From Pseudomonas lalkuanensis (GTDB lineage Bacteria; Pseudomonadota; Gammaproteobacteria; Pseudomonadales; Pseudomonadaceae), in contig NZ_CP043311.1 in assembly GCF_008807375.1 (NCBI RefSeq), positions 2,708,001-2,772,000 on the forward strand: a stretch of 64,000 bases of DNA, in the 5' to 3' direction. The notes below the pieces were generated by a model that made no database searches, had not been told where the DNA came from, and worked only from the letters and a program-made list of their open reading frames with translations. The position numbers were made by a program, and so were the translations under genes. Below, one piece after another: positions 30,530-57,222 of this stretch. The number at the start of each line of letters is the position of its first letter. Position 1 is the first letter of the stretch.

Positions 30530-32629
30530 TCAGAACCCGCTTTCCCTGAGCACCACCGCCGCCACATGGGTGAAAGCCTCGGCCAGCAGGCTGCGGCGAT
30601 TGCCTTCGATCTGCAGGTGGCCGCGGGTTTCGCGCAGGGTGGGCGGGGCGCTGTCCAGTTGCACCAGCACATGGAACAGCGGCGGGGTTGGTACCAGTTC
30701 CTTGCCGTGGCTGGCCACGCTCAGCGGGCCGCCGTAGCGGGAGGCGAGCATCGGGTGTTCGAGCTGGCTGACTCGGGTGCTGCCGATGGTCACCACTGTG
30801 CCGGTGATGGGCGTCGGCAGGCCTTCCGGATAGAAGCGCACGCTGCCGCCTTGCACCAGCCTCTGTACGTCGTCCTGGTCCACATAGGCATCTACCTGCC
30901 AGCGGCTCGGGTCCACCAGCATCCCGATGGGATCGCGGCTGTGCACCCACTGGCCGGGGCGCCAGTCCGGGTCGAGGTCCAGCCACTGCCCGGCGAAGGG
31001 CGCCTGGAGCCTGAGCCGGGCGATTTCCGAACGGGCTGCACGGGCTTCCTCGAACTGCACGCCGAGGCGCTGGCGGGTGGCCAGGGCCTGCTCGGCGCCG
31101 GTGGGGTCGGCGATCAGCCCGCCCAGGCGCGCTTCGTAGCTCTTCACGCTGGCTTCGCTGCTGGACACGCGCGAGGCGATGTCCGGCTCTTCCAGCGCCA
31201 CCAGGGTCGCACCGGCTTCCACGGTGCCGGTGGGGTGGATGGCCTGCAGGCGGGCCGGGTAGGGCGCGAAGACCCGCAGCTGGTGTTCGGCGCGCGCTAC
31301 GCCCAGGGCATGGATCTGGCTGCGCCAGGGCACGGCGAGCAGCAGCAGGAGCGTGGCCAGCACGCCCCACCAGAAGACGCGGCGGCTGCGGCGGATGGCG
31401 GCCCGGTTGGCCCACCAGTGTTTCAGTTCGCGCCAGACCGGCATGAGGATGAACCAGGAGATTTCCACGGCGAACAGGAGTATCCCGAGCAGTTTGAAAA
31501 AGAGCAGGTAGACCGCCACGGCGATGCCGAGGAACAGCACCAGGCGGTAGACCCAGGTCACCATGGCGAAGGCCACCAGGGCGCGGCGTCTGCCGGGACT
31601 GAAGACCTCCGGCCAGTCCTCTTCGAGGCCAAGCAGCACGCGCCGCAAGGTGGTCCGGGCAAGGGCCGAGGAGCGTTCGTGGAGGTTGGGGAAGTCCAGC
31701 AGGTCCGAGAGGATGAAATAGCCGTCGAAACGCATGAAGGGGCTTGCGTTCAACGCCAGGGACAGCACCCAGCTGGTGGTGGCCAGGTAGAGCAGGGCGT
31801 TGCGCAGGGGGCCAGGGTCCGACAACGCCCAGCCAAGGGTGGCCAGGCCCGCCAGGGCCAGTTCGGTGAGGATGCCGGCCGAGGCGATGGCCAGGCGTTG
31901 CCGCGAGCTTCGCAACTTCCAGCTCTCTCCGGTATCGGTGTAGAGCATCGGCCAGAGCACCACGAAGGCGATGCCCATGTGACCCACCCGCAGTCCCAGG
32001 CGCGTCGCCACCAGGGCATGCCCCATTTCGTGGAGTGTCTTGGCCAGGATCAGCGCCATGGCGAAGCTGACCAGCCCGGACGCGGAGAAGGACTCGACCA
32101 CAGCCGTGGTGAAGCTATCCCATTGCTGCAGCACCAGTAGTATCCCCAACACGCCGAGTGCCACCACCAGCACCCCGGTGAGCGGCCGGAACAGCCAGTC
32201 CAACTGCCCGGCCAGGCGCTCGAGGTGCCGCTGCGGGCGCAGCAGCGGGACGCGGAAGAACAGGTAGTGATGCAGCCACCAGCGCCAGTCCAGCCACGCA
32301 TTGCCTTCGCTGCGCCTGGCCATGCGCGACGTGGCGTCCGGGCTGGGGCGCAACAACTGGTGCTGTTCGAGGAACTGGCGAAAATCCAGCACCTGCCCTA
32401 CATCCGGGCGCAGTGGCGTCTGCTCCTGGATGGCCTGGCAGATTCGCGCCGGCGTGCCTTCCCAGCGCAGCAGGCATTCGAACTCCAGCCAGCCGATGCG
32501 ATAGAAGCGGTTCACCACCGTGTCCTGGATTACCCAGGCCGGCTCGCCGTCGCTACCCGGTGCGGTTTCCAGCAGGCGCAGGTCTTCCCGCAAGGCCGGC
32601 AGCGGCAGCTCGGCGGCATCGATCGTCAC
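30530..32629 (-). CDS. M50-type membrane metalloprotease fused to a HlyD-like adaptor domain
   Basis: A 699-residue polytopic inner-membrane protein. Residues 1-100 form a PqqD-like cytoplasmic region. Several membrane helices lie between 150 and 440 and carry the zinc motif H200-E-M-G-H204 and the second signature MRFDGYFILSDLLD, as in S2P/YydH-type peptidases. From about 450 a periplasmic barrel-sandwich region follows (APYPARLQAIHPTGTVEAGATLVALEEP) with a coiled-coil part and the adaptor-like APFAGQWLDLDPDWRPGQWV. It is the last gene of a tightly overlapping operon (4-base ATGA overlap with the upstream adaptor gene). It probably takes the place of the inner-membrane exporter for the giant protein encoded upstream, or processes it; that is inference. 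Confidence 0.82.
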   Translation of the reverse strand: MTIDAAELPLPALREDLRLLETAPGSDGEPAWVIQDTVVNRFYRIGWLEFECLLRWEGTPARICQAIQEQTPLRPDVGQVLDFRQFLEQHQLLRPSPDATSRMARRSEGNAWLDWRWWLHHYLFFRVPLLRPQRHLERLAGQLDWLFRPLTGVLVVALGVLGILLVLQQWDSFTTAVVESFSASGLVSFAMALILAKTLHEMGHALVATRLGLRVGHMGIAFVVLWPMLYTDTGESWKLRSSRQRLAIASAGILTELALAGLATLGWALSDPGPLRNALLYLATTSWVLSLALNASPFMRFDGYFILSDLLDFPNLHERSSALARTTLRRVLLGLEEDWPEVFSPGRRRALVAFAMVTWVYRLVLFLGIAVAVYLLFFKLLGILLFAVEISWFILMPVWRELKHWWANRAAIRRSRRVFWWGVLATLLLLLAVPWRSQIHALGVARAEHQLRVFAPYPARLQAIHPTGTVEAGATLVALEEPDIASRVSSSEASVKSYEARLGGLIADPTGAEQALATRQRLGVQFEEARAARSEIARLRLQAPFAGQWLDLDPDWRPGQWVHSRDPIGMLVDPSRWQVDAYVDQDDVQRLVQGGSVRFYPEGLPTPITGTVVTIGSTRVSQLEHPMLASRYGGPLSVASHGKELVPTPPLFHVLVQLDSAPPTLRETRGHLQIEGNRRSLLAEAFTHVAAVVLRESGF

Positions 32630-33966
32630 AGGCCGGTCCAGGCGCGCAGCGCGGCGAAGGGACGGCGCAGCAGGTAGTAACCGAGCACTACCCGTTCGCC
32701 ATAGAGCTTGGCGGTGCCGTGCAGGCCGAGGCGGGCGTGCTCCGGCTGGCCCTGGACGCTGGCCAGCAGCCGGTAGGCCACCACGCCCTCATCGTTGGCG
32801 CGGGCCTGGTAGCTGGTTTCCAGCACCTCGCCCTTGAGCGGCGAGAGGGGGTAGGCGGTGAGGAACAGGGTGACCTCGGCGCCCGGTTCCAGGGCGATGG
32901 CATCGGCCACGGGCAGCTGGATCAGCATTGCCGGCTGTGCCGGGTCGGCCACCTGGAGGATGCGCTCCCCGGTCACCACCGGCTTGCCCAGCCAGTCATT
33001 GGGGTCGCTGAATACCGCCACTCCGGCGCGCGGTGAACGCACGCGGGTGCGTTGCAGCTGGGCCTGCACCGCCGCCAGTTCGGCGCGGCGCTGCTGGGCA
33101 CGGCCATTGAGCAGGGTCAGCTCGCTCTTGCTCTGGGGGTTATCGAAGGCGCGTTGGCTGGCCGCCATCAGCTCGGCGTCGGCCACCGCCACTTCCTTGC
33201 CGAGGACCTCGGCACGGCTCTTGAGCGTGGTTTCGTCGAGACTGAACAGCAGGGTGCCCGCTTCCACCGGCTGGTTCGGCCGCACCTGCATGCGCTCGAT
33301 CACCCCATCGATGGGCGAACTGACGATCTCCGCCTGGCGCGAGACGATTTCGGCGGGGGCGAGGGCTGTCTGCCGAACCGGTATCAGCATCAGCGCTCCG
33401 GCCACCGCCAGCGCTACCAGCAGCTGACGCTTGCTGGGCCGCCAGGCCAGCAGGCGTCGTTGGCCACCGAAGGCCGCCCAGCAGTGGGCCCAGGTCTGCC
33501 AGAGGCCATCCATCAGCGGCAGCAGGGTTTCCGCCGGCGGGGCTTCCAGGAGGAACAGCACCAGCCCGAGGCGCTTGCCGTCGCGGTCATGCAGGGGAAT
33601 GCACCAGATTCCGCTGGGCCACCATTCGGCCCAGCCTTCGGCGATGTCCTCGGGCGGTTCCACGGCATCGCGGGCCAGCCAGCGAGGCGTCGCATCGGGC
33701 AACTGGCCGGCGAGCCAGCGGCTGGCGCGGCGCAGCCAGACCAGATAGGGCGAATCCTCGCTGGGCCGCGCCAGGCCGGAGACGCAGAGCAACTCCAGGT
33801 CCTCGCCGCGCTGGGCCAGCACCAGGCCCTGGTGGTAGCGCAGGAGCGCGTAAGGGTCGTTGGCGATGGAAAACGCCAGGGCGTTCAGAGAATCGGCGGC
33901 CAGGGCACGGTCGCGCAGGGCGGCCAGTCCCAGCAGCAATTGCGGATGTGGCAGACGATCAGTCAT
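32626..33966 (-). CDS. HlyD-family adaptor with N-terminal GAF-like cytoplasmic domain
   Basis: A 446-residue protein in three parts. Residues 1-165 lack a signal and read like a small GAF-type sensor or docking domain (ALLRYHQGLVLAQRGEDLELLCVSGLA, WCIPLHDRDGKRLGLVLFLLE). One membrane helix follows near 185-200 (LLVALAVAGALMLIPV), then a periplasmic HlyD-like adaptor (IVSSPIDGVIERMQVRPNQPVEAGTLL, coiled coil, RSPRAGVAVF). It overlaps the M50-adaptor gene by 4 bases and the next adaptor gene by 8 bases, so all are made together. It is expected to bridge inner membrane and TolC-like protein. Confidence 0.8.
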   Translation of the reverse strand: MTDRLPHPQLLLGLAALRDRALAADSLNALAFSIANDPYALLRYHQGLVLAQRGEDLELLCVSGLARPSEDSPYLVWLRRASRWLAGQLPDATPRWLARDAVEPPEDIAEGWAEWWPSGIWCIPLHDRDGKRLGLVLFLLEAPPAETLLPLMDGLWQTWAHCWAAFGGQRRLLAWRPSKRQLLVALAVAGALMLIPVRQTALAPAEIVSRQAEIVSSPIDGVIERMQVRPNQPVEAGTLLFSLDETTLKSRAEVLGKEVAVADAELMAASQRAFDNPQSKSELTLLNGRAQQRRAELAAVQAQLQRTRVRSPRAGVAVFSDPNDWLGKPVVTGERILQVADPAQPAMLIQLPVADAIALEPGAEVTLFLTAYPLSPLKGEVLETSYQARANDEGVVAYRLLASVQGQPEHARLGLHGTAKLYGERVVLGYYLLRRPFAALRAWTGL

Positions 33967-34738
33967 TGGCTTGCGGGAAGTGTGCGGTGCCGCTCATGCC
34001 GGCGATCAGTTCCGGGGGCTCGGCGTCGAGCCGGGCCTCCAGTTCCACGGTCTGGGCCACGGCGTCCACCCGCGAGTTGATGGCGCTGATATGGGCGCCA
34101 TAGGACTTGCCCGTTTCCAGGATGCTCACTTCCAGCGGCAGGCCCGGCTTGAGCCTGGGCAGCAGGCTGGAGGGCACGTTGAGGCGGACCTTGAGGGCGC
34201 CGTCGCTGACCAGGTCGAACAGCGGCGTACCGGCGGCCACGGTCTGGTAGGGCTTCACGTGGACCTTGGCCACCCGCCCGGCGAAGGGCGCCTGTACCTG
34301 GCAGTAGCCGCTCTGGGCCTGGGCCAGGGCGCGGGCGCCTTCGGCCTTTTGCACCTCGGTACTGGCCATGGCCACTTCCAGGTCGCCCACCGCATCCAGC
34401 TTGCGCAGGTTGCGTTTAGCGTCGAGGTTCTGCTTCGCCATGGTCAGCTCGGCCACGGCCACCTTGGCGCGGGCCTGGGCTTCTTCGCAGTTGAGTTGGG
34501 CCAGCAGGGCGTTCTTCGCCACCTGCTGGCCGAGGGAGGCCTTGAGTTCGCCGAGTGTGCCGTTCATCTGGCTGGAGAGGGTGGTCTCCAGGTCGGCCGC
34601 GAGCAGCACGCGAATGGCGCCGGGGTCCCCGAGGGGACTGGCCGCCGGCGTGTCATCGGCCTGGGCGGCGGGGAGTGCAAGCAAAGGGACAAGGGACAGC
34701 AAAAATGCGAGCAGACGGCGCTCAGCGTTGTACGACAT
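33959..34738 (-). CDS. Periplasmic membrane-fusion (HlyD/RND-type adaptor) protein
   Basis: A 259-residue exported adaptor: signal peptide (MSYNAERRLLAFLLSLVPLLALPAAQA), a lipoyl-like half (SSQMNGTLGELKASLGQQVAKNALLAQLNC), a helical hairpin (about residues 85-140) and the second half (QVQAPFAGRVAKVHVKPYQTVAAGTPLFDL). It is shorter than RND adaptors and has no membrane-proximal domain beyond about residue 250. It overlaps the upstream TolC-like gene by 17 bases and the next adaptor gene by 8 bases. It probably links the outer-membrane channel to the two membrane-bound adaptor proteins. Confidence 0.84.
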   Translation of the reverse strand: MSYNAERRLLAFLLSLVPLLALPAAQADDTPAASPLGDPGAIRVLLAADLETTLSSQMNGTLGELKASLGQQVAKNALLAQLNCEEAQARAKVAVAELTMAKQNLDAKRNLRKLDAVGDLEVAMASTEVQKAEGARALAQAQSGYCQVQAPFAGRVAKVHVKPYQTVAAGTPLFDLVSDGALKVRLNVPSSLLPRLKPGLPLEVSILETGKSYGAHISAINSRVDAVAQTVELEARLDAEPPELIAGMSGTAHFPQAND

Positions 34739-36254
34739 GCGGTGTTCCTTGTTGGTTGGCGAGGAGTTTGTCGCGTTGCTGCTCTTCCAGGGTGCGCTGG
34801 ATTTCGCGGGCCAGGGTCGGGATGTCGTGCTTCTCGATCTGCTCCGGGAGGATGTCCAGGCCGATGGAGTTGTACAGCCGGCCCCAGGCCGCCTGGGCGC
34901 TGGAGTAAGCCGCTTCGCGCTGGTAACGGGACAGCAGGTAGCGGCCTTCGGCGCGGATCAGCTCCAGTTCCGAGCCATAGGAGGTGTTGCGCGCTGCCTG
35001 GGCGTAGTCCAGCAGGCTCTGGTCCACCCGCAGGCTCTGGTCGGCGAACTCCACTTCCTGGCGCGCCAGCTGGTAGCGCAGGGTGCCGACGCGCACCTGG
35101 GTGAGGATGGCCATGGACAGCGCCACTCGGCGCATGTCGTCAGTTTTCGCCTGGGACTCGGTGGCGTTGTTGAGCGACGGCAGTTGCAAGAGGCGCAGCA
35201 GGTTCAGGGACACCTGCAGCCCGGTTTCGGTCCAGTGGCTGTTGTAGAGGAACTTGTTGGAGTCGTACTTGTAACCGAAGTCTAGGCTGACGTTCGGCCA
35301 GAGCTGGGCCTTGGCGATCTTCAGGTCGTTCTCGTTGACCCGCTTGCGGTACCACTCTTCCATGATCTCCGGTCGGTTCTCCAGGGAGAGCTGTTCCAGC
35401 CGGTTGATGTCCTGCTTCAGCTCCGGCAGCGGCTGTTCGGCCTGGTCGGCGAGGACCAGCTTCGAACCCGGCGGCAGCGACATCAGCGCCGACAGCTCGG
35501 CCTGGGCGAACTCCAGGTCCTGGCGGCGCACGGTGAGCAGGTAGATGGAGTCCAGCAGGGCCCGCTGGTAGGCCAGCACTTCCTGGCGCGGCAACAGGCC
35601 TTTGGACTCTGCTTCCTGGGCGGAGAGCAGGGCCCGGTGGGTGCGCATCAGCAGGCGGTCCACCTGGGGCATCAGGCGCTGGGCGCCCACGGCGCGCCAG
35701 TACGCGTTGCGCACATCCTGCAGGACGTTCTGCGCCACCTTGCGACGGCGTTCCTCGGCCATGAGGATCTGGTCGCTCTTCTGCTGGGTGCGGTAGTAGG
35801 CCACGCCGAAGTCCAGCAGGCTCCAGGACAGGCCCAGGCCGTAGAGCTCGCGGTAACGCTCTTCGGAGGTGGATGCCCGCAGGCTTTCCTCGCGGTCCTC
35901 GATGCCGATGGAGGTGCCGCCGGAGTCGTTGTTACGCCCGGCATAGCCGGCCGAGGCCACCAGGCGCGGCAGCATCTCGTGGCTGGATACGTCCCGCAGG
36001 TCGCTGGACAGGGCGCTTTCCATCAGCTTGAGGCGGTAGTCCAGGTTGTACTTCAGGGCACGCGCGGCGGCTTCGTAGAAGGTGATGGGCGCGGTTACCG
36101 GCTCCTGGTCGGCGTACATCTGCGCCTGGTCCTGGACGATGCGCTGTCGGCTTTCCTCTTCCGTATACACGTGGGGCTTCATGGCCGAACAGGCACCTAG
36201 CAGGAGGCTGGAGGCGATGGCGGCGCTGAGGAGGGTGAGGGGCGTTCTTGGCAT
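34722..36254 (-). CDS. TolC-family outer-membrane efflux lipoprotein
   Basis: A 510-residue outer-membrane factor. The N-terminus is a lipoprotein signal with lipobox LLGAC, followed by two OEP domains rich in heptad helices (for example RKVAQNVLQDVRNAYWRAVGAQRL and FADQSLRVDQSLLDYAQAARNTSYGSELELIRAEGRYL). The start at 36254 has AAGGA at 7 bases. An ATG at 36278 that overlaps the stop of the giant-protein gene (ATGA) is the alternative and would add 8 residues. It forms the outer-membrane exit duct of the putative export system, with the adaptor genes following directly. Confidence 0.86.
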   Translation of the reverse strand: MPRTPLTLLSAAIASSLLLGACSAMKPHVYTEEESRQRIVQDQAQMYADQEPVTAPITFYEAAARALKYNLDYRLKLMESALSSDLRDVSSHEMLPRLVASAGYAGRNNDSGGTSIGIEDREESLRASTSEERYRELYGLGLSWSLLDFGVAYYRTQQKSDQILMAEERRRKVAQNVLQDVRNAYWRAVGAQRLMPQVDRLLMRTHRALLSAQEAESKGLLPRQEVLAYQRALLDSIYLLTVRRQDLEFAQAELSALMSLPPGSKLVLADQAEQPLPELKQDINRLEQLSLENRPEIMEEWYRKRVNENDLKIAKAQLWPNVSLDFGYKYDSNKFLYNSHWTETGLQVSLNLLRLLQLPSLNNATESQAKTDDMRRVALSMAILTQVRVGTLRYQLARQEVEFADQSLRVDQSLLDYAQAARNTSYGSELELIRAEGRYLLSRYQREAAYSSAQAAWGRLYNSIGLDILPEQIEKHDIPTLAREIQRTLEEQQRDKLLANQQGTPHVVQR

Positions 36255-36274
36255 GGTCAGTCCTTGATTCCTGC

Positions 36275-39200
36275 TCATTCGGGGGTGCCGTTGCCGAGGG
36301 CGCGCAGGCGCTCGGCGGCCTCGCGCAACTGGGCGCGGAAACCGGGGGCGGTACGGGTGTCGGAAGGCGGTGGCAACTGTGCATCGCCCTGGGTGAGGTT
36401 CTCCGCGCCGGGGGCGAATACCGAGGGATCGGCCAGCAGGCCATCTGCGCTGAGGTTGATCCGGCCATGACGGCCGAGGATCCACGCCAGGTCCAGGTCG
36501 CTGTCCACACGGCTTTCGCGCACCGCGCGGGAAACGAACTGGCCGGGTGTCTGGCCAAGGCGGTTGCCGAGGGTATCGCTCTGGATTTCCGGTACCCGGC
36601 CCAGGGCCAGGTTGCTGCCGTCGGCCTCCCAGCTGGACAGGGTGAGAAGCCGGTCGTTGCGTTCCACCACCGGGCCCACGAAGACCACCGGGTCCACCAC
36701 GGGCAGCGTCGGGCGGCGGAAGGGATCGCGGTCACCACGGTCGAAATGCGGGTCGATCAGGTTGCTTTCCGGGGCGGGGATGAAGGGGGCGGCGATGTCC
36801 AGGTCGATGACCAGTTGCGCCCGGTCCGTCGCCCCGGCACGGTCGCCAAGGGTGTAGGTGAAAACGTCCTGCAGCACGCGGCCGAGGCCGGCGGCACGCA
36901 GCACTTCGGGGTTGGTGAGGTCGATGCTGTACGTGTAGCTGCCGTCGGCATTGATCACCAGGGTGCCGAAGCGGCCCTGGATGGCCTGGCCGACCACGCC
37001 AGCCGTACCGCTGCCGGTCTCGGCGCCGGTGCGGATGCCCACCACCTGCAACTGCTCGCCGCCGTCCACATCCGAGTCGTTGGGCAGGACATTCCCACTG
37101 GCCTGTGGGGCCGGGGTCTGGTCGCTGGCCACATTGCTGTCGTCACGGGCGACGGGGTTGTCGTTGGCGCCCTGGATCAGCAGGTTCAGGCGTGCTTCGG
37201 ACTCGGCGCCGCTGGTGTCGCGCATGCGGTAGGTGAAGACCTCACGCAGCGTCTCGCCGGCGGTGCGCAGGGCCTGTACCGTCGGATTGCTGTTATCCAG
37301 CACATAGGTGTAGCTGCCATCGGCGTTGAGGGTCAGGGTGCCGTAGCGGCCCGCCAGGGCCACGCCGGCACCGGCGCTGTTGCCCAATTCGCTGGTGGCC
37401 GAGAGCACTTGTCGGGTTTCGCCGTTGGCGACGCTGTCCACGTCCTGGTCGTTGCTCAGGACGTTGCCGGACGGATCGCTGCCGGGGATGTTGTTGCCCA
37501 CGCCGCCAGCCTCCACCGCGGTACTGTCGTCATCCTGGGCGATCGGAGTGTCATTGCGGCCATCGATGGTGATGCGCAGCTCGGCGGTGTCGGTGGCCAG
37601 GTGCGTGTCGGCCAGGGTGTAGGTGAAGGTGTCCAGCAGGGTCTGGCCGCTGATGCGCAACGCCTGCACCTCGGCCAGGCTGTTGTCGACCACATAGGTC
37701 CAGCTGCCGTCGGCGTTCATCGTCAGGTCGCCATAGCGGCCGCGCAGCACCGTGCCGACGGTCCCGCTGGTGCCGCTGCCGGTTTCCGTGCCGGTGCGAA
37801 TGCCGGTCACCGACAGCGGCTGCCCTTCCAGGTCGAAGTCGTTGTCCAGGACATTGCCGCTGGGGTTCACACCGGGGGCATTGTTGTTCAGGCCGCCCGC
37901 CTCGACGGCGGTGGCCTCGTCGTCGAAACCGTCCGGAGCGTCGTTGCGACCGACGACGATGATCGACAGCTGGGCCAGGTCGGTGAGCCCGCCGAGGTCC
38001 GTCACTTCATAGGTGAAGTGGTCCACCAGGGTGTCCAGCAGGTCGAGGGCGAGCACCTCCGGGTTGGAGATGTCGATGGTGTAGTGGTAGCTGCCGTCGG
38101 CATTGATCACCAGCGTGCCGTACTGGCCGACCAGCACGCTGCCGACGGCGCCAGCGGTGCCGCTGCCGTCTTCCGGCCCGGTGCGGATGCCGGTGACGGT
38201 GAGCTGGTCGCCCTGGTCGACGTCGCTGTCGTTGGGCAGGACGTTGCCGGTGGGGTTGAGTACCAGGCCGTCGCCGTTGTCGGTGACGCCGATGTTCAGG
38301 TCGTCCTCGGCGACCGGAGCGTCCCAGGCACCCTGGATGGTGATGGTGATGCGGGCAATGCTCAGGGCACTGGCGGTGTCGCGCATGCGGTAGGAGAAGA
38401 CTTCCTGCAGCGTGTCGCCAGGCTTGAGTGCCTGGACCGCCGCGAGGGCGTTGTTCACCACGTAGTGCGACTCGCCATTGGGCTGCACGATCAATGTGCC
38501 GTACAGCCCGGCGATGCTCTGGCTGCCGGTGACCAGGGTGAATCCGTTGCCCCCCAGTTCATCACCGACGCGAATGCCGATGAGCGTCTTGGTATCGCCC
38601 GCGTCGACGTCAGTGTCGTTCGCCATGACATTGAGGCGCGGGTCGATGCCGAGGGTGCTGTTGTTGGTGCCGCCAGCCTCCACGGCGACCAGGTCTACGC
38701 GGATGGCATGCGGGTTGTCGTTGCGGCCCTGGATGGTGATGGTGAGGGTGGCGGTGCTGGCGGCGCCCGCAAGATCGCGAACGGTGTAGGTGAAGCGTTC
38801 ACTCAGCGTGTCGCCAATGATGCGCAGGGCCTCCACCCGTGGATCGTCGTTATCGACGATGTAGGTGTAGCTGCCGTCGGCGTTCAGGGTCAGGGTGCCG
38901 TACTCGCCAACCAAGGCGCTGCCGATGGTGCCGATGTTGGCGCCCTGGCGTACATCGACCACGGTGAGCGTCTCGCCGAACTGGTCGACATCGGTGTCGT
39001 TGGCCAGGACGTTGCCGCTTGGGTCGACGCCGGCGAGGATGTTGTCGAGACCACCGGCTTCCACGGCGATAGCACTGTCGTCGTTGGCCACGGGGTTATC
39101 GTTGGCGCCTTCGATGGTGATGTTCAGCAGCGCAATGTCGGTGGCGCCGGCGGTGTCGATGACGCTGTAGTTGAAGGTGTCGATCAGCGTATTGCCGGCA

Positions 39201-42200
39201 CGCAGGGCCTGCACGGCGGCCAGGCTGTTGTCCAGCCGATAGCTGTAGCTGCCATCGGCGTTCAGGGTCAGCCAGCCATACTGGCCGCGCAGTTCGCTGC
39301 CCAGGGTGCCCGCCGAACCTATGCCTTCCACGGCACCGGTCCGCACGGATTCCACCGCCTGGGTTTCACCGTAGTCGATGCTGTCGAGGGCTCCGCCGTC
39401 GATGTCGGTGTCGTTGTCCAGCACATTGCCGCTCGGGTCCACACCGGCGCTGCCATTGTTAACGCCGCCGGCCTCCACGGCCGTGGCGTCGTCGTCGGTG
39501 GCCACCGGGTTGTCGTTGCGGCCAAGGATGAGGATCACCAGCTGCGCTGACTGGGGCGCTTCCTGACCATCGGAAATCTCGTAGGTGAAGCGCTCGAGGA
39601 GGAAGTCCGACAGTTGGCGCAGGGCTTCGACTTCCGGGTTGCTGTTGTCCAGGACGTAGGTATAGGTCCCGTCGGCGTTCAGCGTCAGGGTGCCGTACTG
39701 GCCGGCGAAGGCCTGGCCGATCACGCCATTGGTACTCAGGGTGTCGTTGCTGATCGAGATCACGCTCAGCGGGTCGCCGTCCGGATCGACGTCGAACAGC
39801 AGGGCGTCGCCAGAGGGATCGATGCCCGCCTGGCCGTTGGCCACGCCACCGCGTTCAACAGCAATATTGAAGTGGTCCTGGGCAATGGGCGGATCGTTGA
39901 CCCCACGGACGGTGATCACCAGTTGCGCCTGGTCGGTCAGGCCGTTGGTATCGACGATCTGGTAGGTGAATGTCTCGGTCAGGGTCTGGCCGGCCTGCAG
40001 GGCCTGCACCGTGGGGTTGGCGCTGTCCACGTCGTAGGTGAAGGAACCATCGGCGCCGATGCGCAACAGGCCGAAATTGCCAACCAGCAGGGTCGCGTTG
40101 GTGCCGCTGGTGGAGCCTGCGGCCACGCCGATCAGCACGCCGCCTGCGGTTTCCAGGCCCGAGCGCACGCCGTTGACCCTGAGCTGGGTGTTGGGTCGGT
40201 CGGCGGCGTCGACGTCGTTGTCCACGCCGTTACCTCCGGGCTGGGTGACCGGGCCGGGTCGGCTGGGGAAGCGGATGACGTTGCCGCTGGGGTTGCTCTC
40301 GCCAATGGCGCTGGGGCCGGAACCGGCCTGGGCCACGGCACGGTCATCGCTGGCGACGGGGTTGTCGTAATTGCCGCGCACGGTGATGCGCAGCTCGGCA
40401 AGGTCGTTCAGGCCCGCCGCATCGGTGACCTGATAGGTGAAGATGTCGGACAGCGTGTCGTTGGGGCCCAGCCGTTGCACAGCGGTGCTGTTCTCGTTGA
40501 TCGCATAGCTGTAGTTGCCATCGGAACCGATGGTCAGGGTGCCGTAGGTGCCATTGATGCTGATGCTGCCGCCAGTGGGCACGATGATCATCAGGCCGGG
40601 TACGATCTCGCGCAGGGCGCGAATGCCACTGACTCGCTTGGTTTCGCCGTAGTCGATCGGGTCCGCCGGGTTCTCGCCGCCGTCCACATCCAGGTCGTTG
40701 TCCAGGACATTGCCGGTGGCGTTGGCGCCGGGAACCGGGAATCCGGGCGGAGGGTTGTCGCCGGGGTTGGCGATGTCGGTGTTGTTGACGCCGCCTTTCT
40801 CGATGGCCGTACCCGCGTCATTGATGCCTGTCGGGGTGTCGTTGGCACCCTGGATGACCACCGAGAGAGTGGCCGAGGATTGCAGCGGCGGCCCGCCGAT
40901 GCCGATGTCCGAGATCACGTAGGTGAAGTTCTCGGTCAACTGCTGGGAGGCCAGGCGGAGCGCCTGCACCTCGGGATAGGCGTTGTCGACGATGTACTGG
41001 TAGGCGCCGTTGGCCTGGATCACCAGCTTGCCGTAGCGACCGAGCACTTCCACCGGGCCAAGCGCTGGAACCGTGACCACCACGCCAAGCGGAGAGGTGA
41101 CCGATATGACGTTGAGCTGGTCGCCGTTGGTGGCGATATCGATATCGGTATCGTTGTCCAGCAGGTTACCGCGCGGGTCGATGCCCGCAATGATGTTGGC
41201 GGTGCCGCCGGCTTCCAGCGCCGTGGCGTCATCGTTCACGGCGTTCGGCGCGTCGTTCACCGGGTCGAGGCGAATCACCAGGAAGTCGCGGTCGGTGCGT
41301 GCGTCGGCCAGTTCGCCGGGAATGCCGTTGCCGTTGAAGTCGCCATAGTTGCCCAGGTCGTTGGTCACCACTTCGAGGAAGTCGACGCCATTGAAATCCT
41401 GGTTGCCCAGGTAACGAAGGCCGGCGAGGGCGGCGTTGATGTCGGCGATCCGGCCCACCAGCACCAGGTTCGCGGTACCGGCGCCGGTGACCGTCACCCC
41501 GGTGGTTGCGCCGGTGAACGACAGGGTTCCGCGCAGCACTTGGAGGCTGACCTGGATGGCGCGACCGTTGACATTGGGATCGCGCTCGGCGTCGACGTCG
41601 CTGACGCTGATACCCGGAATGGCCAGCGGCGTGTCCTCCAGGCCCTGCTGGAAGCCCGGCAGGCTGTTGACCGGTGCATCGTTGATTTCCACATAGCCGG
41701 AGTTGGCCTGCTGAGTCGCGCCTTCACCGAGGGTCACCCGGACCTGGCCGAGGGTGCCGCCGTCGGTGTCGATGCGTACGCGCAGCTCACCGAACTGGGC
41801 GATGCTGTTCACCGTGGTGGGCGCATCGATGCGGTACAGCCCTGAAGGCAACACGCCGAAGCTGAAGCGGCCATTGGCATTGGTGGTCGTGGTAAACGTC
41901 TTGTCGTCGCCATTGCCGAGCACACCGTCTTTACCGGCCCAGATCAGGTTGATGGTCTGGTTGGCGATGGCCAGCTCGTAGGCCGGGGTGCCGGGAACCG
42001 GGTCGGGGTCGGGCGTCCTGTCATTGGGGGCGGTGGCGGCCGTGTCCGTGTCGTTCCACAGGGTTCCGCTGATGATTCCGAGGCCGGCGCCTTCGCGAAG
42101 CACGTAGTTGTTCAGGGTCGTACCGTCCGGACCGGGGCCGTCCGCGCCGGTACGCTCGCCCGCAGCGGTGCCGTCGGCGCCGACTGCCGTGCCACCCCAA

Positions 42201-45200
42201 CTGGTGAAGGTTTCCGGCAGGCTGCTCCAGCTCAGGGTGGCATCGGTGCTGGCGATGGTCGCGCTGTTCGGCACCTGCACGCTGTAGACCACGCTGACGC
42301 TGGTGCCGGGGTTGATTTGCGCAATGTCCACCGTCACGCCGCCCGTGGTGCTGAAGCTGACGCCGGCCGGCAGGTTGCCCGGCGTGTAGGTGGTGCCGCC
42401 GATGGTGATGCTCAGCAGGCTGTAGTTGCTGCCGGTGGGGAAGCCATCTGTGAGGTGCACGTCGTAGGCCGGCAGGCTGCCGTTGGAGGTGAAACCGACC
42501 GTAACCGTGGCGGTGCCGAGAGTACCGCCGGGGTTGGCGTTGAAGTCGGTGACCGTCTTGTCCAGGTTGGTGAAACCGGGTTCGACGATGCGCTCGAACA
42601 GGGTATCGCTGGTGGTGCGGACAATGCCGTTGACGCGGTCATGCACCGTGACGCCAAGCTGCTTGGCGCTCTGGTTGCCGAGGCTGTTGTCCACCCGGGC
42701 GTTGAACTCGAAGACCACGCCTTCGAGGTCGTCGTCGTTGCTGTCGTTACCGGTGCCAAAGGGGCCGTTGGTGAGGTTGCCGAGGTTGAGGGTCACGATC
42801 TGGCGACCGTTGGCGTCAGTGTCGAGCACCACGTAGATCGGGTTGATCACGCCGCCAGGGGCAGCGCCGGAAAGGTCGGGCGTAATCAGCTGGGCTTGCG
42901 GGCTGTCCTCGTTGCCGATGATATGCAAGGTGCCGCCGATGATCAGGTCCCCCAGGCTGGTCACCAGCCCGCCATCGGATATGAAACCGATGCGCATGGT
43001 GCTGAGGTCATCCACCGTCAGGCCATCGTCCAGGGTGATGATCAGCTGGTAGTTGGGGTTGCTGCCCTCGGGCACCAGCACGGCGGCACGGTAGCGGATG
43101 ATCTCGCCGATGCTCACGTTCTCCACGAGCGCGTCGGTCGGGTTGGGCGCGGCGGTGTCGGATAGGCCGCCGACACGGGAGAAGCGGATGGCCTGGGCCA
43201 CCGGGATGATCAGGGCGCTGCTGCGCTGGTAGTCGTTCAGGACACCGCTATTGAGCAGGCCGTCGAGGCCGGTGCGTTCGCCGGCGGGGTCGGCGGCGCC
43301 GTTGATGTTGCTGCCGTTGAGGCTGCTCCAGCGGACGTTGGCGAGGTTGTCGAACTCGGCCACGGAGGCGCCGGTGGCGTTCACCACGCCGGTCACGCGG
43401 ATGACGAGGGTACCGCCCTTGGCGATGTCGACATTGCCGGTGTTGATCAGCGTGCGGCCGGTCGGGTCGAGCCTGAAGCTGGCGCTGATATCGGTACTGA
43501 CCCCGCCCAGGGTATAGATCGCGCTGACCACAGTGAGCTGGTCCATTTCGGTGGGCAGCTGGCTGGAGAAGGCGATGTCGAAGGCGTCGTAGTCACTGCC
43601 GGCATTGCCATTGGCGATGGTGATGCTGAAGTCGACCCGGTCGCCCTCGTCGAAGCCCAGGCCAGGGTTGGTGATCAGCTGCTGGGTGAGCTGCAGGGTC
43701 GGTTCCTGGATGGTGATCGACGGCTTGGTACCGGTCAGGTTCACATCGCGATTCAGCGGCGTGGCGCCGTTCGGAGTATTGCCGTCCGGGTCGCTGTAGC
43801 TCAGCCGGGCGTCGTTCTGGCGCACGCCGCCGGCCTGGTTGCCAATCACGTTGCTGGCCACCAGGCGCACGCGGATGACGAAGCTGTTGTTGCCGGTGTT
43901 GTTGTCGCCCGCAGCACCGGCGGCGGTGAAGGTGAAGCGCGCGTCGACGCCGTCGGCCCCCAGGGTTCCGCTCGGGGCAGTGAGGCTGCCGATGGTGACG
44001 GTGCCGGCGAAGTTGGCGGTCAGCGCGCCACCAGCCGTGGTGATCAGCTGATAGCCCTGGTTGGCGTTGAAGCTGGTGTCCAGGCGCAGGCCGTTGGGGA
44101 TCAGGTCGTCGATGCGCAGGCTCTGGGTGGTGCCTTCGGGCAGGGTGACGATGATGTCGTAGAGCATGCTCTCGCCGACCACCAGGTTCGCGCCCGTGGT
44201 GTGGGTGGCGCTGGAGTCGCTGTTGTCCAGGCTGCCGCCGGCGAAGTTCTTGCTGATGACCGGGGCGCTGACCTGCTGGTTGGCGATGTCGGAGAGCGGG
44301 GCGGGAACGAAGTTCTGTCCGCCTTCGGCGCTGGCGTAGTGGGTGAGCTGGGCGGTGGTCTGCAGGGATGCGCTGGCACCGATGTTCGCCGCCACCTGCA
44401 CGTCGTAGGTGATCACCACGACATTGGCGCCGCTGTTGTCGGCGGCAGTGCCCGGGCGGCCGGCGAGCAGGGCGCCAGCGCCGGGGGCGTCGATGAAGGT
44501 GACGGTGTTGGTGGCGTTGTCCACCGTGAAATGGGTGCCGGCCACCAGTTGCGTGCCGTCGCCGCGATAGATCAGCAGGTTGGCGGCGGAAAGGTTGCCG
44601 CCAACGAAGGACAGGCCCGGCGGGAGGGTGATGCGAGTGCTGACGTCGTAGGCGCTGCCGCCGCCACGGTTCTCGATGGCAGTGGCCAGGCGCAGGCGGT
44701 CGCTGGCATCGATGCCGGTGACGTTGCCATTGACCGCCAGGATGTCGGTGATGCTGCCGCTGAAGGGCCTGCCGGCGGTACCCGGTGCGTTCCAGGTGCC
44801 GGTGGTGCCGGTCACCGTGCCGTGGCTGGCGGACACCACACCGTGGCTCATGTTCAGCACCGGCTCGGCCACCGAGGCGATCAGGGTCACGTCGTCGGTG
44901 GTGAGCAGGACGCTCTTGTCCAGGGTGCGGGTCTGGCTCGATTCACCCAGCACGTTGAAGGCGCGCTGGTCAGCGAAAGGCTGGTCGCTGACGGTCAGGG
45001 TGAAGTCGATGGCGATGCGGCTGCCGTCGATGCCGGGGTTGACGTAGTCGGCAAAGGTGAACACCAGGGAGTTGCCCGGGCCGATGGTGACCGATGTGGG
45101 GCTGTTCGGGTTGGTGTTGCCGGTGGCCAGACGCCAGATGGTGTTGGGGTCGATGCCGGTCAGGTCGAACAGTGGCAGCGGCAGGTACGCAGTGAGCTTG

Positions 45201-47737
45201 AAGTTCTCGTAGTCGCCGGTGACCAGGTCATAGCTGAGGCGGAAGGTGACCGAGTCGCCGGGCCGCAATTCGGTGCCAGGTGCCGGAGCGCCGCCACCAT
45301 TGAGGTCGGCCAGGTCTATCTGCACCTGGCTGGTGGGAATGGTGCTGAGGGTACTGGAGCCGTCGCTCTCGTCGAAGCCGCTGAGGTTGTTCGGGTCGAA
45401 CAGCACAGTGGCCGTGACCGTGGCGTTGTTGCCGAAGGAGTCGCCTTCATTGATCTCGCTGTGAGGGGCGCCCGCCGGGGGTGTGTAGCTCTGGGCGACG
45501 CGCGCCTGGTAGGCGATCACCGCCAGGGTGGCGCCTTCCAGGAGGTTATCGAACGCCAGGTCACCGTTGAGCCACTGACGGGCACCGAAAGCATTGGCCA
45601 GGGAGGCGCCGACATCGAAGACGATGGACGTACTGCCATCGGCATTGACGATGGTTTGAGAAAGCAGGGCGATCGTCTGTGTAGCGCCGTTCTGGCTGAT
45701 GGTCAGGGTGGCGGTGCCGGGAATCAGGCTCTGGCCGTCGCCGAGGCGGTCGAAGACCGCAAAGTCACCGGAACCGTGGAAGGTCTTGCCGAAGGCGAAA
45801 TAGTCGGAGAGGGCGATGTTCAGGTTGTAGTTCAGGATGTCGCCCGGACTGAGGCCGGTCGTGCCGAGATCGGTACGTACGCTGACCTGCTTCTGCAGGG
45901 TGATGGACTTGGCGACGAAACTGACGTCGTCTCCGCTTCCATTGAAGATGATCTGGCCGTTGGTGGCGTCGCGCGGGTCCAGGGGTTGCCAGCTGCCGGC
46001 GGCCGTGGGGGCGTCAAAGGTGATGGTGACGTCGTCGCCGGTGGCGGCGTTGAGTACCGGGACGCCGTCGGCATCGGATTCCGGGACGAAGAAATTCACG
46101 CTGGTGGTCGTGGCGCCGGTCAGCGTCGGGTAGCGGACGGTGAACTCACGGATATAAAGGTCGTTGCTGAGGTCGCCGTCGTTGTTCTGCGCGAGGATGC
46201 GCTGGATGAATGTCGGGTCGGTGATGGCACGGCCGTCGTAAAGGGTGATCGAGGTGATGGTGCCGCCGCCACCGGGCGAGATGGCGGTCACTATGACGTT
46301 GTCCGGAACCGGCTGGACCAGCACCACGTCGGTCAGGGTCTGGGAGTCGGCCGGGGTGATGATGACGTCCAGTTCGCGGCCATGGTTCGGGCCGGTCGCG
46401 GTTTCGCCTTCGGGCGTGGTGATGACCTGGTCGAAGGTGATCACCGTCGGGTGCACCACATAGCTGTCGGCGTTGGCCGAGGGCTCGAGGATACTGGGGT
46501 CGGTCGCCGGGTTGTTCAGAGAGTCGTTGCCGTACTGGAAGCCGCTGCGCGCACGGATGGTCAGGTCCGGCGTAGTTCCGGAGAAGGAAAAGTCGGTGTC
46601 GGCCAGATCGCTCAAGGACGCAGTCACCTGCACGGTGATGGGGGGCTGGCCCTGGGATACGCTGGCGAAGGGCAGTTCGACCACCACCATCTGGTCGCCC
46701 GCCTGCATGCCGAAATCGGCGGCGTTGATGATCAGCGGCTTGCCGTCGGTGCCCACCGCCAGTGGGTGGCTGGCCTGGCCATTGGCGTCGAAGGTCAGCA
46801 CATGCGCGGTAAGGTTCTGCCCGAGGTAGGTGGCGGAGACGAAGGTGATGCCATCGTCGATTTCCGCGCCCGCACCGTCCTTGCCGGTGGCGGGGAAGAA
46901 CAGGTCGATGAAGGGCGCGTAGCCGGCGTCGGCGCTGATGTTGTTGAAGGTGACGTCGAAAGCGAAGGTGTCGCCCAGCAACACATCCGCACCGCCGGTA
47001 AGGGTGGTGCTGGGGCCGGCAGCCAGCAGGCGGTCGTAGGCCGCTGTGGCGCTGGCGGCGAGGGCAATGGGCCTGTCGATGTCACCGCTGGTGACTTCCA
47101 GGTCCCAGTCGCCGCCGGCATGGGTGCTGCCGGTATCGTCGCTGGAGGCCGCGACATCGGCGCCGGTCCAGCGTGCCAGTTCGTTGACCAGGGTGCGCCC
47201 GGCGCTGCCTTCACCCACCTTGCAACCGTACAGCTGAATGTCGGCCCCTTCGCTGAGGGACTGGCTCCATTGGCTGAGGGGCTGGGCGAACTGGTCGATG
47301 TTGTCGGCAGTGAGGGTCGTCTTGCCGAGGGTGAACTCGCCGGACGCGCCGTGTGACAGGATCTGGATGGAGTCGACCTGGCCAAGTTTCGCGAGAGCGG
47401 CGGAGATGGCCGCCAGTCCATCCTGATTGGCCTCTACCACCAGCACGTCGACATCGCCGGGGAGTTGCGCGGTCAGTTGTTCGCGGCCTTCGATGCGGCT
47501 GTCCAGCACCAGCAGGTGCCGGCTGGCGGACTGCTGCTGACCGGGTTCGCTGCGGGCATCGTTGGGGGTGGCATGGTCGGTGGTGGCCTTGCCGGCATCA
47601 CCGTTGTCCTGGTGCTGCTGGTCAACCGCTGCGGCGGCGGCACCGTCGAACAGAATGCGCGGCTCCAGGGCCATGGCGCGGCGCTGGGGCCTGAATACGG
47701 GCGGCACGCGCGCGCCGGTCTTGGTATCGATATCCAT
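36275..47737 (-). CDS. Giant (3820-residue) secreted or surface protein: LEPR-type N-terminus, DUF4347, DUF11-like and VCBS-type repeats
   Basis: One uninterrupted frame. Near the N-terminus stands MALEPRILFDGA (residues 22-33), matching the LEPR-XLL sorting-type motif seen at the start of very large repeat proteins; there is no Sec signal. Residues 75-240 are a DUF4347 domain (LLVLDSRIEG, QILSHGASGEFTLG, IQLYGCKVGEG). Residues about 240-1880 are many immunoglobulin-like DUF11-type domains. Around 1890-1985 is an SdrD-B-like domain (ISGTLWNDTDT, NGRFSFGVLPSGLYRI). Residues about 2160-3645 hold 11 VCBS/cadherin-like repeats. The C-terminal 170 residues are proline-rich then helical and contain no RTX nonapeptides. 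It is probably an adhesin or biofilm matrix protein, exported by the four proteins encoded downstream. Confidence 0.85.
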   Translation of the reverse strand: MDIDTKTGARVPPVFRPQRRAMALEPRILFDGAAAAAVDQQHQDNGDAGKATTDHATPNDARSEPGQQQSASRHLLVLDSRIEGREQLTAQLPGDVDVLVVEANQDGLAAISAALAKLGQVDSIQILSHGASGEFTLGKTTLTADNIDQFAQPLSQWSQSLSEGADIQLYGCKVGEGSAGRTLVNELARWTGADVAASSDDTGSTHAGGDWDLEVTSGDIDRPIALAASATAAYDRLLAAGPSTTLTGGADVLLGDTFAFDVTFNNISADAGYAPFIDLFFPATGKDGAGAEIDDGITFVSATYLGQNLTAHVLTFDANGQASHPLAVGTDGKPLIINAADFGMQAGDQMVVVELPFASVSQGQPPITVQVTASLSDLADTDFSFSGTTPDLTIRARSGFQYGNDSLNNPATDPSILEPSANADSYVVHPTVITFDQVITTPEGETATGPNHGRELDVIITPADSQTLTDVVLVQPVPDNVIVTAISPGGGGTITSITLYDGRAITDPTFIQRILAQNNDGDLSNDLYIREFTVRYPTLTGATTTSVNFFVPESDADGVPVLNAATGDDVTITFDAPTAAGSWQPLDPRDATNGQIIFNGSGDDVSFVAKSITLQKQVSVRTDLGTTGLSPGDILNYNLNIALSDYFAFGKTFHGSGDFAVFDRLGDGQSLIPGTATLTISQNGATQTIALLSQTIVNADGSTSIVFDVGASLANAFGARQWLNGDLAFDNLLEGATLAVIAYQARVAQSYTPPAGAPHSEINEGDSFGNNATVTATVLFDPNNLSGFDESDGSSTLSTIPTSQVQIDLADLNGGGAPAPGTELRPGDSVTFRLSYDLVTGDYENFKLTAYLPLPLFDLTGIDPNTIWRLATGNTNPNSPTSVTIGPGNSLVFTFADYVNPGIDGSRIAIDFTLTVSDQPFADQRAFNVLGESSQTRTLDKSVLLTTDDVTLIASVAEPVLNMSHGVVSASHGTVTGTTGTWNAPGTAGRPFSGSITDILAVNGNVTGIDASDRLRLATAIENRGGGSAYDVSTRITLPPGLSFVGGNLSAANLLIYRGDGTQLVAGTHFTVDNATNTVTFIDAPGAGALLAGRPGTAADNSGANVVVITYDVQVAANIGASASLQTTAQLTHYASAEGGQNFVPAPLSDIANQQVSAPVISKNFAGGSLDNSDSSATHTTGANLVVGESMLYDIIVTLPEGTTQSLRIDDLIPNGLRLDTSFNANQGYQLITTAGGALTANFAGTVTIGSLTAPSGTLGADGVDARFTFTAAGAAGDNNTGNNSFVIRVRLVASNVIGNQAGGVRQNDARLSYSDPDGNTPNGATPLNRDVNLTGTKPSITIQEPTLQLTQQLITNPGLGFDEGDRVDFSITIANGNAGSDYDAFDIAFSSQLPTEMDQLTVVSAIYTLGGVSTDISASFRLDPTGRTLINTGNVDIAKGGTLVIRVTGVVNATGASVAEFDNLANVRWSSLNGSNINGAADPAGERTGLDGLLNSGVLNDYQRSSALIIPVAQAIRFSRVGGLSDTAAPNPTDALVENVSIGEIIRYRAAVLVPEGSNPNYQLIITLDDGLTVDDLSTMRIGFISDGGLVTSLGDLIIGGTLHIIGNEDSPQAQLITPDLSGAAPGGVINPIYVVLDTDANGRQIVTLNLGNLTNGPFGTGNDSNDDDLEGVVFEFNARVDNSLGNQSAKQLGVTVHDRVNGIVRTTSDTLFERIVEPGFTNLDKTVTDFNANPGGTLGTATVTVGFTSNGSLPAYDVHLTDGFPTGSNYSLLSITIGGTTYTPGNLPAGVSFSTTGGVTVDIAQINPGTSVSVVYSVQVPNSATIASTDATLSWSSLPETFTSWGGTAVGADGTAAGERTGADGPGPDGTTLNNYVLREGAGLGIISGTLWNDTDTAATAPNDRTPDPDPVPGTPAYELAIANQTINLIWAGKDGVLGNGDDKTFTTTTNANGRFSFGVLPSGLYRIDAPTTVNSIAQFGELRVRIDTDGGTLGQVRVTLGEGATQQANSGYVEINDAPVNSLPGFQQGLEDTPLAIPGISVSDVDAERDPNVNGRAIQVSLQVLRGTLSFTGATTGVTVTGAGTANLVLVGRIADINAALAGLRYLGNQDFNGVDFLEVVTNDLGNYGDFNGNGIPGELADARTDRDFLVIRLDPVNDAPNAVNDDATALEAGGTANIIAGIDPRGNLLDNDTDIDIATNGDQLNVISVTSPLGVVVTVPALGPVEVLGRYGKLVIQANGAYQYIVDNAYPEVQALRLASQQLTENFTYVISDIGIGGPPLQSSATLSVVIQGANDTPTGINDAGTAIEKGGVNNTDIANPGDNPPPGFPVPGANATGNVLDNDLDVDGGENPADPIDYGETKRVSGIRALREIVPGLMIIVPTGGSISINGTYGTLTIGSDGNYSYAINENSTAVQRLGPNDTLSDIFTYQVTDAAGLNDLAELRITVRGNYDNPVASDDRAVAQAGSGPSAIGESNPSGNVIRFPSRPGPVTQPGGNGVDNDVDAADRPNTQLRVNGVRSGLETAGGVLIGVAAGSTSGTNATLLVGNFGLLRIGADGSFTYDVDSANPTVQALQAGQTLTETFTYQIVDTNGLTDQAQLVITVRGVNDPPIAQDHFNIAVERGGVANGQAGIDPSGDALLFDVDPDGDPLSVISISNDTLSTNGVIGQAFAGQYGTLTLNADGTYTYVLDNSNPEVEALRQLSDFLLERFTYEISDGQEAPQSAQLVILILGRNDNPVATDDDATAVEAGGVNNGSAGVDPSGNVLDNDTDIDGGALDSIDYGETQAVESVRTGAVEGIGSAGTLGSELRGQYGWLTLNADGSYSYRLDNSLAAVQALRAGNTLIDTFNYSVIDTAGATDIALLNITIEGANDNPVANDDSAIAVEAGGLDNILAGVDPSGNVLANDTDVDQFGETLTVVDVRQGANIGTIGSALVGEYGTLTLNADGSYTYIVDNDDPRVEALRIIGDTLSERFTYTVRDLAGAASTATLTITIQGRNDNPHAIRVDLVAVEAGGTNNSTLGIDPRLNVMANDTDVDAGDTKTLIGIRVGDELGGNGFTLVTGSQSIAGLYGTLIVQPNGESHYVVNNALAAVQALKPGDTLQEVFSYRMRDTASALSIARITITIQGAWDAPVAEDDLNIGVTDNGDGLVLNPTGNVLPNDSDVDQGDQLTVTGIRTGPEDGSGTAGAVGSVLVGQYGTLVINADGSYHYTIDISNPEVLALDLLDTLVDHFTYEVTDLGGLTDLAQLSIIVVGRNDAPDGFDDEATAVEAGGLNNNAPGVNPSGNVLDNDFDLEGQPLSVTGIRTGTETGSGTSGTVGTVLRGRYGDLTMNADGSWTYVVDNSLAEVQALRISGQTLLDTFTYTLADTHLATDTAELRITIDGRNDTPIAQDDDSTAVEAGGVGNNIPGSDPSGNVLSNDQDVDSVANGETRQVLSATSELGNSAGAGVALAGRYGTLTLNADGSYTYVLDNSNPTVQALRTAGETLREVFTYRMRDTSGAESEARLNLLIQGANDNPVARDDSNVASDQTPAPQASGNVLPNDSDVDGGEQLQVVGIRTGAETGSGTAGVVGQAIQGRFGTLVINADGSYTYSIDLTNPEVLRAAGLGRVLQDVFTYTLGDRAGATDRAQLVIDLDIAAPFIPAPESNLIDPHFDRGDRDPFRRPTLPVVDPVVFVGPVVERNDRLLTLSSWEADGSNLALGRVPEIQSDTLGNRLGQTPGQFVSRAVRESRVDSDLDLAWILGRHGRINLSADGLLADPSVFAPGAENLTQGDAQLPPPSDTRTAPGFRAQLREAAERLRALGNGTPE
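36790..41260 (-). repeat. Eleven tandem VCBS-type repeats inside the giant protein gene
   Basis: Units of about 125-160 codons each contain NPVAxDDxxxAVEAGG, GNVLxNDxDVD, a G-x-YGTLTLNADGSYTYxLDNSNPxVQALR block and FTYxxxDxxGxxDxAxLxIxIxGxND. Approximate boundaries: 41260, 40840, 40360, 39890, 39510, 39100, 38720, 38310, 37930, 37540, 37150, 36790. DNA of the units has diverged, so recent expansion is not evident. Confidence 0.8.
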
Positions 47738-57202: not shown

Positions 57203-57208
57203 CAACAA
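57201..57208 (+). promoter_or_regulatory. Crc/Hfq CA motif before alkyl sulfatase copy 3
   Basis: AACAACAA overlaps the GMC gene stop codon and lies 15-22 bases upstream of the sulfatase start used here (57223), beside its GAGGA ribosome site. Confidence 0.55.
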
Positions 57209-57222
57209 TGAGGAAGCAACAG

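Follow-up and report, generated by a model that had tools for sequence, protein, structure and literature searches.

The analyzed window, a 64,000-nucleotide stretch of the Pseudomonas lalkuanensis genome (a single contig of 6.06 Mb), contains an operon of five minus-strand ORFs that encode a giant protein, a TolC-type lipoprotein, a small adaptor, a GAF-adaptor fusion, and an M50-adaptor fusion (Table 1). The positions and domains of these ORFs confirm the five-gene set described in the first-pass annotation. Adjacent genes overlap at all four of the four junctions, two of which read ATGA and GTGA. No ATPase gene was found among the five. The M50 protein is 88% identical to a protein of Metapseudomonas resinovorans and 95% identical to one of Pseudomonas sp. 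JM0905a. Alkylsulfatase genes flank the operon on both sides (window 13099-15066 and 57181-59199), and a nonribosomal peptide synthetase module lies at window 126-4412.

Table 1. Genes and features of the operon, in window coordinates.
Feature	Position	Strand	Remarks
Giant protein (proposed substrate), 3820 aa	36275..47737	-	LEPR N-terminus, DUF4347, VCBS/cadherin-like repeats (11 stretches matched), conserved C-terminal tail
LEPR-XLL motif of giant, LEPRILFDGA	47621..47671	-	NF012209, 18.0 bits vs cut-off 17; marginal: over the curated cut-off, yet absent from a profile listing at E<=0.1
DUF4347 domain of giant	47024..47515	-	
C-terminal tail of giant, GFRAQLR motif	36278..36343	-	
TolC/OEP outer-membrane lipoprotein	34722..36278	-	lipobox LLGAC, by eye; alternative ATG at 36254
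Small adaptor, HlyD/RND-MFP type	33959..34738	-	N-terminal signal by eye
GAF-adaptor fusion	32626..33966	-	
M50-adaptor fusion	30530..32629	-	GTG start
Recognition-element (PqqD-like) domain of M50 protein, residues 9-95	32345..32605	-	modelled fold
Site-2-protease core of M50 protein, residues 182-379	31493..32086	-	RseP-like
HExxH of M50 protein	32018-32032	-	
MacA-like adaptor part of M50 protein, residues 433-686	30572..31333	-	modelled fold

The giant protein matches the NCBIfam BapA/Bap/LapF adhesin model over its cut-off through its repeats. The VCBS/cadherin-type repeats are putatively calcium-binding. Adaptors, TolC, and a giant repetitive cargo are common to the operon and to type I secretion, including the HlyB-HlyD-TolC system and the LapA- and BapA-type adhesins. 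Unlike type I systems, however, the locus has no ABC exporter, its cargo has an N-terminal LEPR leader, and two of its adaptors are fused to M50 and GAF domains. The HlyD-type adaptor and TolC are present, and the stricter NCBIfam models type_I_hlyD and type_I_sec_TolC matched below cut-off. The giant also differs from type I cargo in that no RTX family appears in its Pfam list at E<=0.01. A Vibrio with a LEPR-XLL giant that ends in RTX has been reported (PMC10868602). Compared with RND or MFS tripartite pumps, the operon contains the adaptor and TolC and no adjoining RND or MFS pump.

The M50 protein is predicted to begin with a winged-helix fold bearing three N-terminal strands, as in RiPP recognition elements, and to continue into an RseP-like core and a MacA-like adaptor part. 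Within the membrane core, the HExxH motif and the distal Asp302 (FDGYF), the pair that marks site-2 proteases, are invariant in 48/48 aligned proteins. The GAF-adaptor fusion is modelled as a GAF fold (approximately residues 3-171), a helix, and a MacA-like adaptor (approximately residues 191-429). The best 50 Foldseek rows for both models are adaptors throughout; the recognition-element, RseP, and GAF matches come from a second structural aligner restricted to Foldseek’s own candidates, and its middling Z-scores may reflect a common arrangement, chiefly of helical parts, as in the RseP match.

An M50 core is also found in RiPP maturation proteins (daptide_HExxH NF041824 and YydH/LiaK). The NF041824 model aligns with residues 29-393 of the window protein at E 1.1e-46 and 159.7 bits, well below its 300-bit cut-off. 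Unlike them, the window M50 protein carries a fused adaptor and has a giant protein as its partner. The recognition elements of lasso-peptide systems (6jx3, 5v1u, 5v1v) are short separate chains of 84-88 residues whose structures include leader peptides, whereas the window domain is fused to a membrane protease and its leader binding is putative. On the modelled fold, this domain is the likely, if putative, leader-reader. The M50 core may serve as a channel, a leader protease, or both.

Conservation and a second locus in the host genome

A scan of named genomes returned at least 80 loci. The four partners are adjacent in 72/80 among the loci listed, and several of the other eight are truncated at contig ends. 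In 53 of the 56 listed loci with more than 3.2 kb available upstream of TolC, an ORF of 900 aa or more on the same strand terminates at TolC. Co-occurrence was assessed in a sample of 377 gammaproteobacterial genomes, with the best three M50 candidates and the best four type I adaptor candidates scored per genome. The M50 protein is present in 59 genomes, DUF4347 in 57 (55 over cut-off), and LEPR-XLL in 37 (E<=0.01), or in 52 when all over-cut-off matches are counted, some of which lie in short frames and may be chance. M50 and DUF4347 occur together in 44 of the 377 genomes (Fisher 8.5e-33), and M50 accompanies LEPR-XLL in 34/37 genomes at E<=0.01 (Fisher 6.6e-29) and in 43/52 over cut-off; these p-values overstate independence because the sampled genomes are mutually related. 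Neither LEPR-XLL (E<=0.1) nor DUF4347 was found in 9/59 M50 genomes, two of which (L183, L195) still have a LEPR-like ORF at the locus.

LEPR-type proteins occur with no M50 gene found in G171 (a LEQRLLLS giant in a 7373-aa frame), G193 (LEKRIVFDA), and G059 (LEQRVLLSA, in a fragmentary genome). A few kilobases from the LEQRLLLS giant, at G171:C57:21725-21784 (L227), are an ORF resembling an adaptor and a 1046-aa ORF of pump-like size. Very long LEPR frames (14112, 13848, and 10477 aa) are found at G190 (C84:83224, C56, C44), G043:C1, and G222:C56; LEPR matches number five in G190 and two in G043.

Another DUF4347 giant, 3,569 aa long, is encoded in the host genome along with its own diverged four-partner set, whose members are 36-42% identical to those of the window. 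At this locus, the small adaptor, GAF-adaptor, and M50-adaptor genes lie upstream of the giant gene, and the TolC gene lies downstream. The second giant has the leader LEPRMMFDGA, where the window giant has LEPRILFDGA. The interval between the second M50 gene and its giant contains, among others, aspartyl-hydroxylase-like and sulfotransferase-like genes (L003:15143-16908), the products of which may modify the giant before export. By eye, a sulfotransferase-like ORF occupies the same place at L161:11039-11920. Directly before the second giant, on the opposite strand, L003:16896-19006 encodes a GNAT acetyltransferase, a phage-tail-collar protein, and a third protein that resembles the latter by eye.

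A midpoint-rooted tree of 128 M50 proteins divides into clade A (96 proteins, including that of the window) and clade B (32 proteins), with support of 0.999 and 1.0.

LEPR leader and C-terminal motif

The window giant carries the LEPR-XLL motif (NF012209) in an Asp-Gly flavor. In open-licence PMC text, papers that use the term LEPR-XLL name it in passing, and no account of the export route of such proteins was found. N-termini were compared in a subset of genomes, beginning with 20 fetched DUF4347 proteins and the host’s own and adding others later; the DUF4347 matches in G053 and G366, which fall below cut-off, were excluded. A LExR motif is present in 20/20 of the N-termini fetched in the first round from DUF4347 proteins of M50 genomes.

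DUF4347 is over cut-off in 11 genomes in which M50 was initially unmatched. G094 was rejected as an M50-less exception, as a GAF gene, an adaptor, and the start of an M50 gene were found at a contig end. In the ten M50-less DUF4347 genomes, four proteins begin directly with DUF4347, five have Sec-like hydrophobic N-termini, and one begins with LEKRIVFDA. One passenger domain therefore apparently rides on different termini, with the LEPR terminus accompanying the M50 set. DUF4347 itself was rejected as the export signal because DUF4347 proteins without M50 carry these other N-termini and because none of the eight inspected has the C-terminal motif described below. The co-occurrence of LEPR-XLL with M50 and the signal swap on DUF4347 proteins support the first-pass proposal for LEPR, which, by this comparison of sequences, is likely the recognition signal of the M50 machine.

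Several DUF4347 proteins occur in other settings. In G196, where the giant starts directly with DUF4347, an ABC and a type I adaptor lie approximately 15-17 kb from the giant start. At L152 and L159, DUF4347 proteins with Sec-like N-termini have C-termini that appear barrel-like (outer-membrane) by eye and are perhaps autotransporters. The DUF4347 protein BTH_II1339 is in a table of the top stationary-phase-raised proteins of Burkholderia thailandensis (PMC12322963).

The leader occurs in two flavors that follow the M50 clades. The residue after its hydrophobic pair is Asp in 25/25 clade-A proteins and Ser or Ala in 39/40 clade-B proteins, the exception being G143. This count sets aside G045 (LENRIVLDA, of unclear type), G155 (N-terminus off contig), the Ser-type giant of G238, and the M50-less G171, G193, and G059; genomes with no protein in the tree were assigned a type from their score against the first M50 model, and G094 from its GAF gene. 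G238 contains both machines and both leader flavors.

The conserved tail of the giant defines a second shared element. The pattern F.[^P]Q[LVI] occurs within the last 60 residues of 58/74 kept ORFs beside TolC, 17/1244 control ORFs, and approximately 1.2/74 shuffled tails; five of 79 rows (L065, L067, L170, L173, L183) are omitted because the ORF beside TolC there was not the substrate, and with them the count is 58/79. A looser form, [FL].[^P]Q[LVIM], is found in 71/74 ORFs beside TolC versus 74/1244 controls. When loci are clustered by M50 at 60% identity, the strict motif is present in 12/19 clusters and the loose motif in 17/19; at 50% identity, the values are 3/9 and 7/9. The C-terminal motif is present in 0/8 inspected M50-less DUF4347 proteins, three of which are masked near the end. 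Three complete clade-B substrates (L162, L176, L187) instead have a common hydrophobic C-terminal region with DPLPV, DPLPI, or DPTPI, a possible membrane anchor.

ABC exporters and SecA at related loci

An ABC-profile search of the window and the second locus gave no match. The 20 frames neighboring the operon include no ABC and no RND at E<=1e-5, and the sole MFS is more than 10 kb away, in line with the earlier statement that neither an ABC nor an RND protein is encoded in the operon or nearby. Across 143 stretches, 132 of them with a called M50 gene, the ABC profile matched ORFs in 15; 13 of these 15 score at or below 155 bits, against 509-733 bits for control exporters. Exporter-level matches occur only at L161 (667 bits, 613 aa, opposite strand) and L187 (423 bits, 614 aa, approximately 3 kb before the GAF gene). 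With exporter-level matches in 2/143 stretches and no recurrence, no co-occurring ABC exporter just outside the gene set speaks against the first-pass proposal. A motif-only ABC scan marked 11/143 stretches and would miss one of the host’s own type I ABCs. The 622-aa ORF directly after the M50 gene at L183 is by eye an ABC-F type ATPase. At L081, a fragment of a type I adaptor lies approximately 10 kb from the M50 gene.

A SecA-type ATPase gene is present at 21/32 clade-B loci versus 0/96 clade-A loci of the tree; the absence of a dedicated ATPase is not supported as a general rule for these machines. The two clades arose by a single split, and the associations with SecA and with leader flavor are thus not independent events. 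The one dedicated clade-B SecA that was scanned (L166:3869-5854) contains DEAD, preprotein-binding, and P-loop domains and has no scaffold or wing Pfam match. The window operon is a member of the SecA-less branch. The host genome has one SecA, at C1:1052362, and exactly one SecA match is found in 20/22 sampled genomes of the window’s clade, with G238 set apart; G186 has none, and G348 has one plus two weak matches inside large frames. These weak SecA_DEAD matches lie at C43:5742-6854 and C61:218488-218934, within frames of 3610 and 2746 aa. Transport in this clade, if active, would thus have to draw on the housekeeping SecA or on the proton-motive force.

Kamneva, Poudel and Ward (2015; PMC4452313) described a secondary SecA_DEAD locus with M50/HlyD, GAF/HlyD, HlyD, and sometimes OEP genes. 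They proposed SecA as the ATPase and M50 as a possible pore, and termed the broader role of the locus “completely unknown”; PMC5313232 cites this work. The M50/HlyD, GAF/HlyD, and HlyD genes are common to that locus and the window, and both lack an ABC gene, but the SecA_DEAD gene is missing from the window’s clade. Clades A and B join in one M50 alignment and tree. The notion of an M50 pore without an ABC protein had thus been published earlier for relatives that carry SecA (PMC4452313), and the window system is a SecA-less variant of that predicted export system, with a substrate and signal now proposed. The consulted parts of PMC4452313 leave the substrate, signal, and recognition domain unnamed, and no earlier report of the substrate link, recognition fold, signal swap, or SecA-less branch was found in open-licence PMC text. 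The elements newly proposed here are the substrate, the leader, its likely reader, and the C-terminal motif.

Proposed export mechanism and alternatives

The explanation favored overall, and judged somewhat probable, is that the operon supplies both a dedicated export machine without an ABC protein and the giant substrate of that machine, with a SecA-type motor as the driving force. In the cytoplasm, the recognition-element domain of the M50 protein would bind the LEPR N-terminus of the giant as a leader. Inner-membrane passage would take place at the M50 core itself or at SecYEG docked on that core, with leader cleavage by the intact HExxH site. A periplasmic ring, built from the adaptor parts of the M50 and GAF proteins and from the small adaptor, would meet the operon’s TolC, so that the chain exits without folding, and the VCBS/cadherin-type repeats would fold outside the cell. 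Gating of this ring may depend on a cytoplasmic cue received by the GAF domain. Transport would be driven by a SecA-type ATPase, dedicated in much of clade B and probably the housekeeping SecA for this operon; this energy source is the weakest step of the proposed mechanism. Of the dedicated export machine put forward in the first-pass annotation, the absence of an ABC protein and the inner-membrane position of M50 are supported by comparison, whereas a general absence of dedicated ATPases is not supported.

A stronger form of this explanation has slightly less than an even chance of being correct. It describes a distinct route in which a leader-reading site-2 protease fused to an adaptor replaces the ABC exporter and carries LEPR-tagged proteins of approximately 800 to 14,000 residues from the cytoplasm to the exterior; one branch often has a dedicated SecA, and the window’s branch has no dedicated ATPase.

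Export could instead occur in two steps. SecYEG and housekeeping SecA would use LEPR as an odd signal peptide, M50 would only clip it as RseP does, and the adaptors and TolC would finish export from the periplasm. The RseP-like core, the SecA genes at many clade-B loci, and the stretch preceding the motif, which is net positive in 20/22 listed motif-bearing proteins, are consistent with this pathway. However, LEPR N-termini are mostly less hydrophobic than those of the five Sec-like relatives (hydropathy 0.67-1.61 vs 1.54-2.73, ranges that barely overlap), and the recognition element and three adaptors would be superfluous. Two-step export is judged unlikely.

Large adhesins of LapA-type systems are under proteolytic control, and this precedent, the invariant HExxH, and the GAF sensor fold would all suit a GAF-switched M50 protease whose cut at the N-terminus anchors or frees a giant exported by other means. 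Retention has no need of the operon’s own TolC and three adaptors, which stay together in most of the listed loci, and no other exporter is recurrently linked to them. A role confined to processing or retention is judged improbable.

It is very doubtful that the operon’s adaptors and TolC draw their power from a type I ABC exporter located elsewhere in the genome. The host genome does encode two LssB-type ABCs and one further type I-like ABC, but each lies beside its own adaptor, and this pairing led to the rejection of an ABC exporter in trans as the main reading. Type I adaptors (E<=1e-40) occur in 134/377 genomes and are enriched among those with M50 (33/59 versus 101/318 others), so an ABC protein could help in trans there. 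The other 26/59 M50 genomes lack both a type I adaptor at E<=1e-40 and an over-cut-off LssB ABC, yet 17/26 have DUF4347. One of these 26, G131, a member of the same family as the host with a listed completeness of 100%, encodes a LEPR giant next to the gene set. Finally, chance linkage to neighbors that perform unrelated efflux is scarcely credible: the adaptor and TolC families are generic, but the overlapping genes, the conserved adjacency of the partners, the second copy in the genome, and the genome-wide co-occurrence all argue against it.

If the dedicated ABC-free machine is real, it would account for the exit from the cell of many bacterial giant proteins bearing the LEPR N-terminal tag. 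It would also add a protein exporter with a protease core in place of the expected ABC pump. Now that a signal and a likely reader domain are paired with a machine, the export of LEPR giants becomes directly testable.
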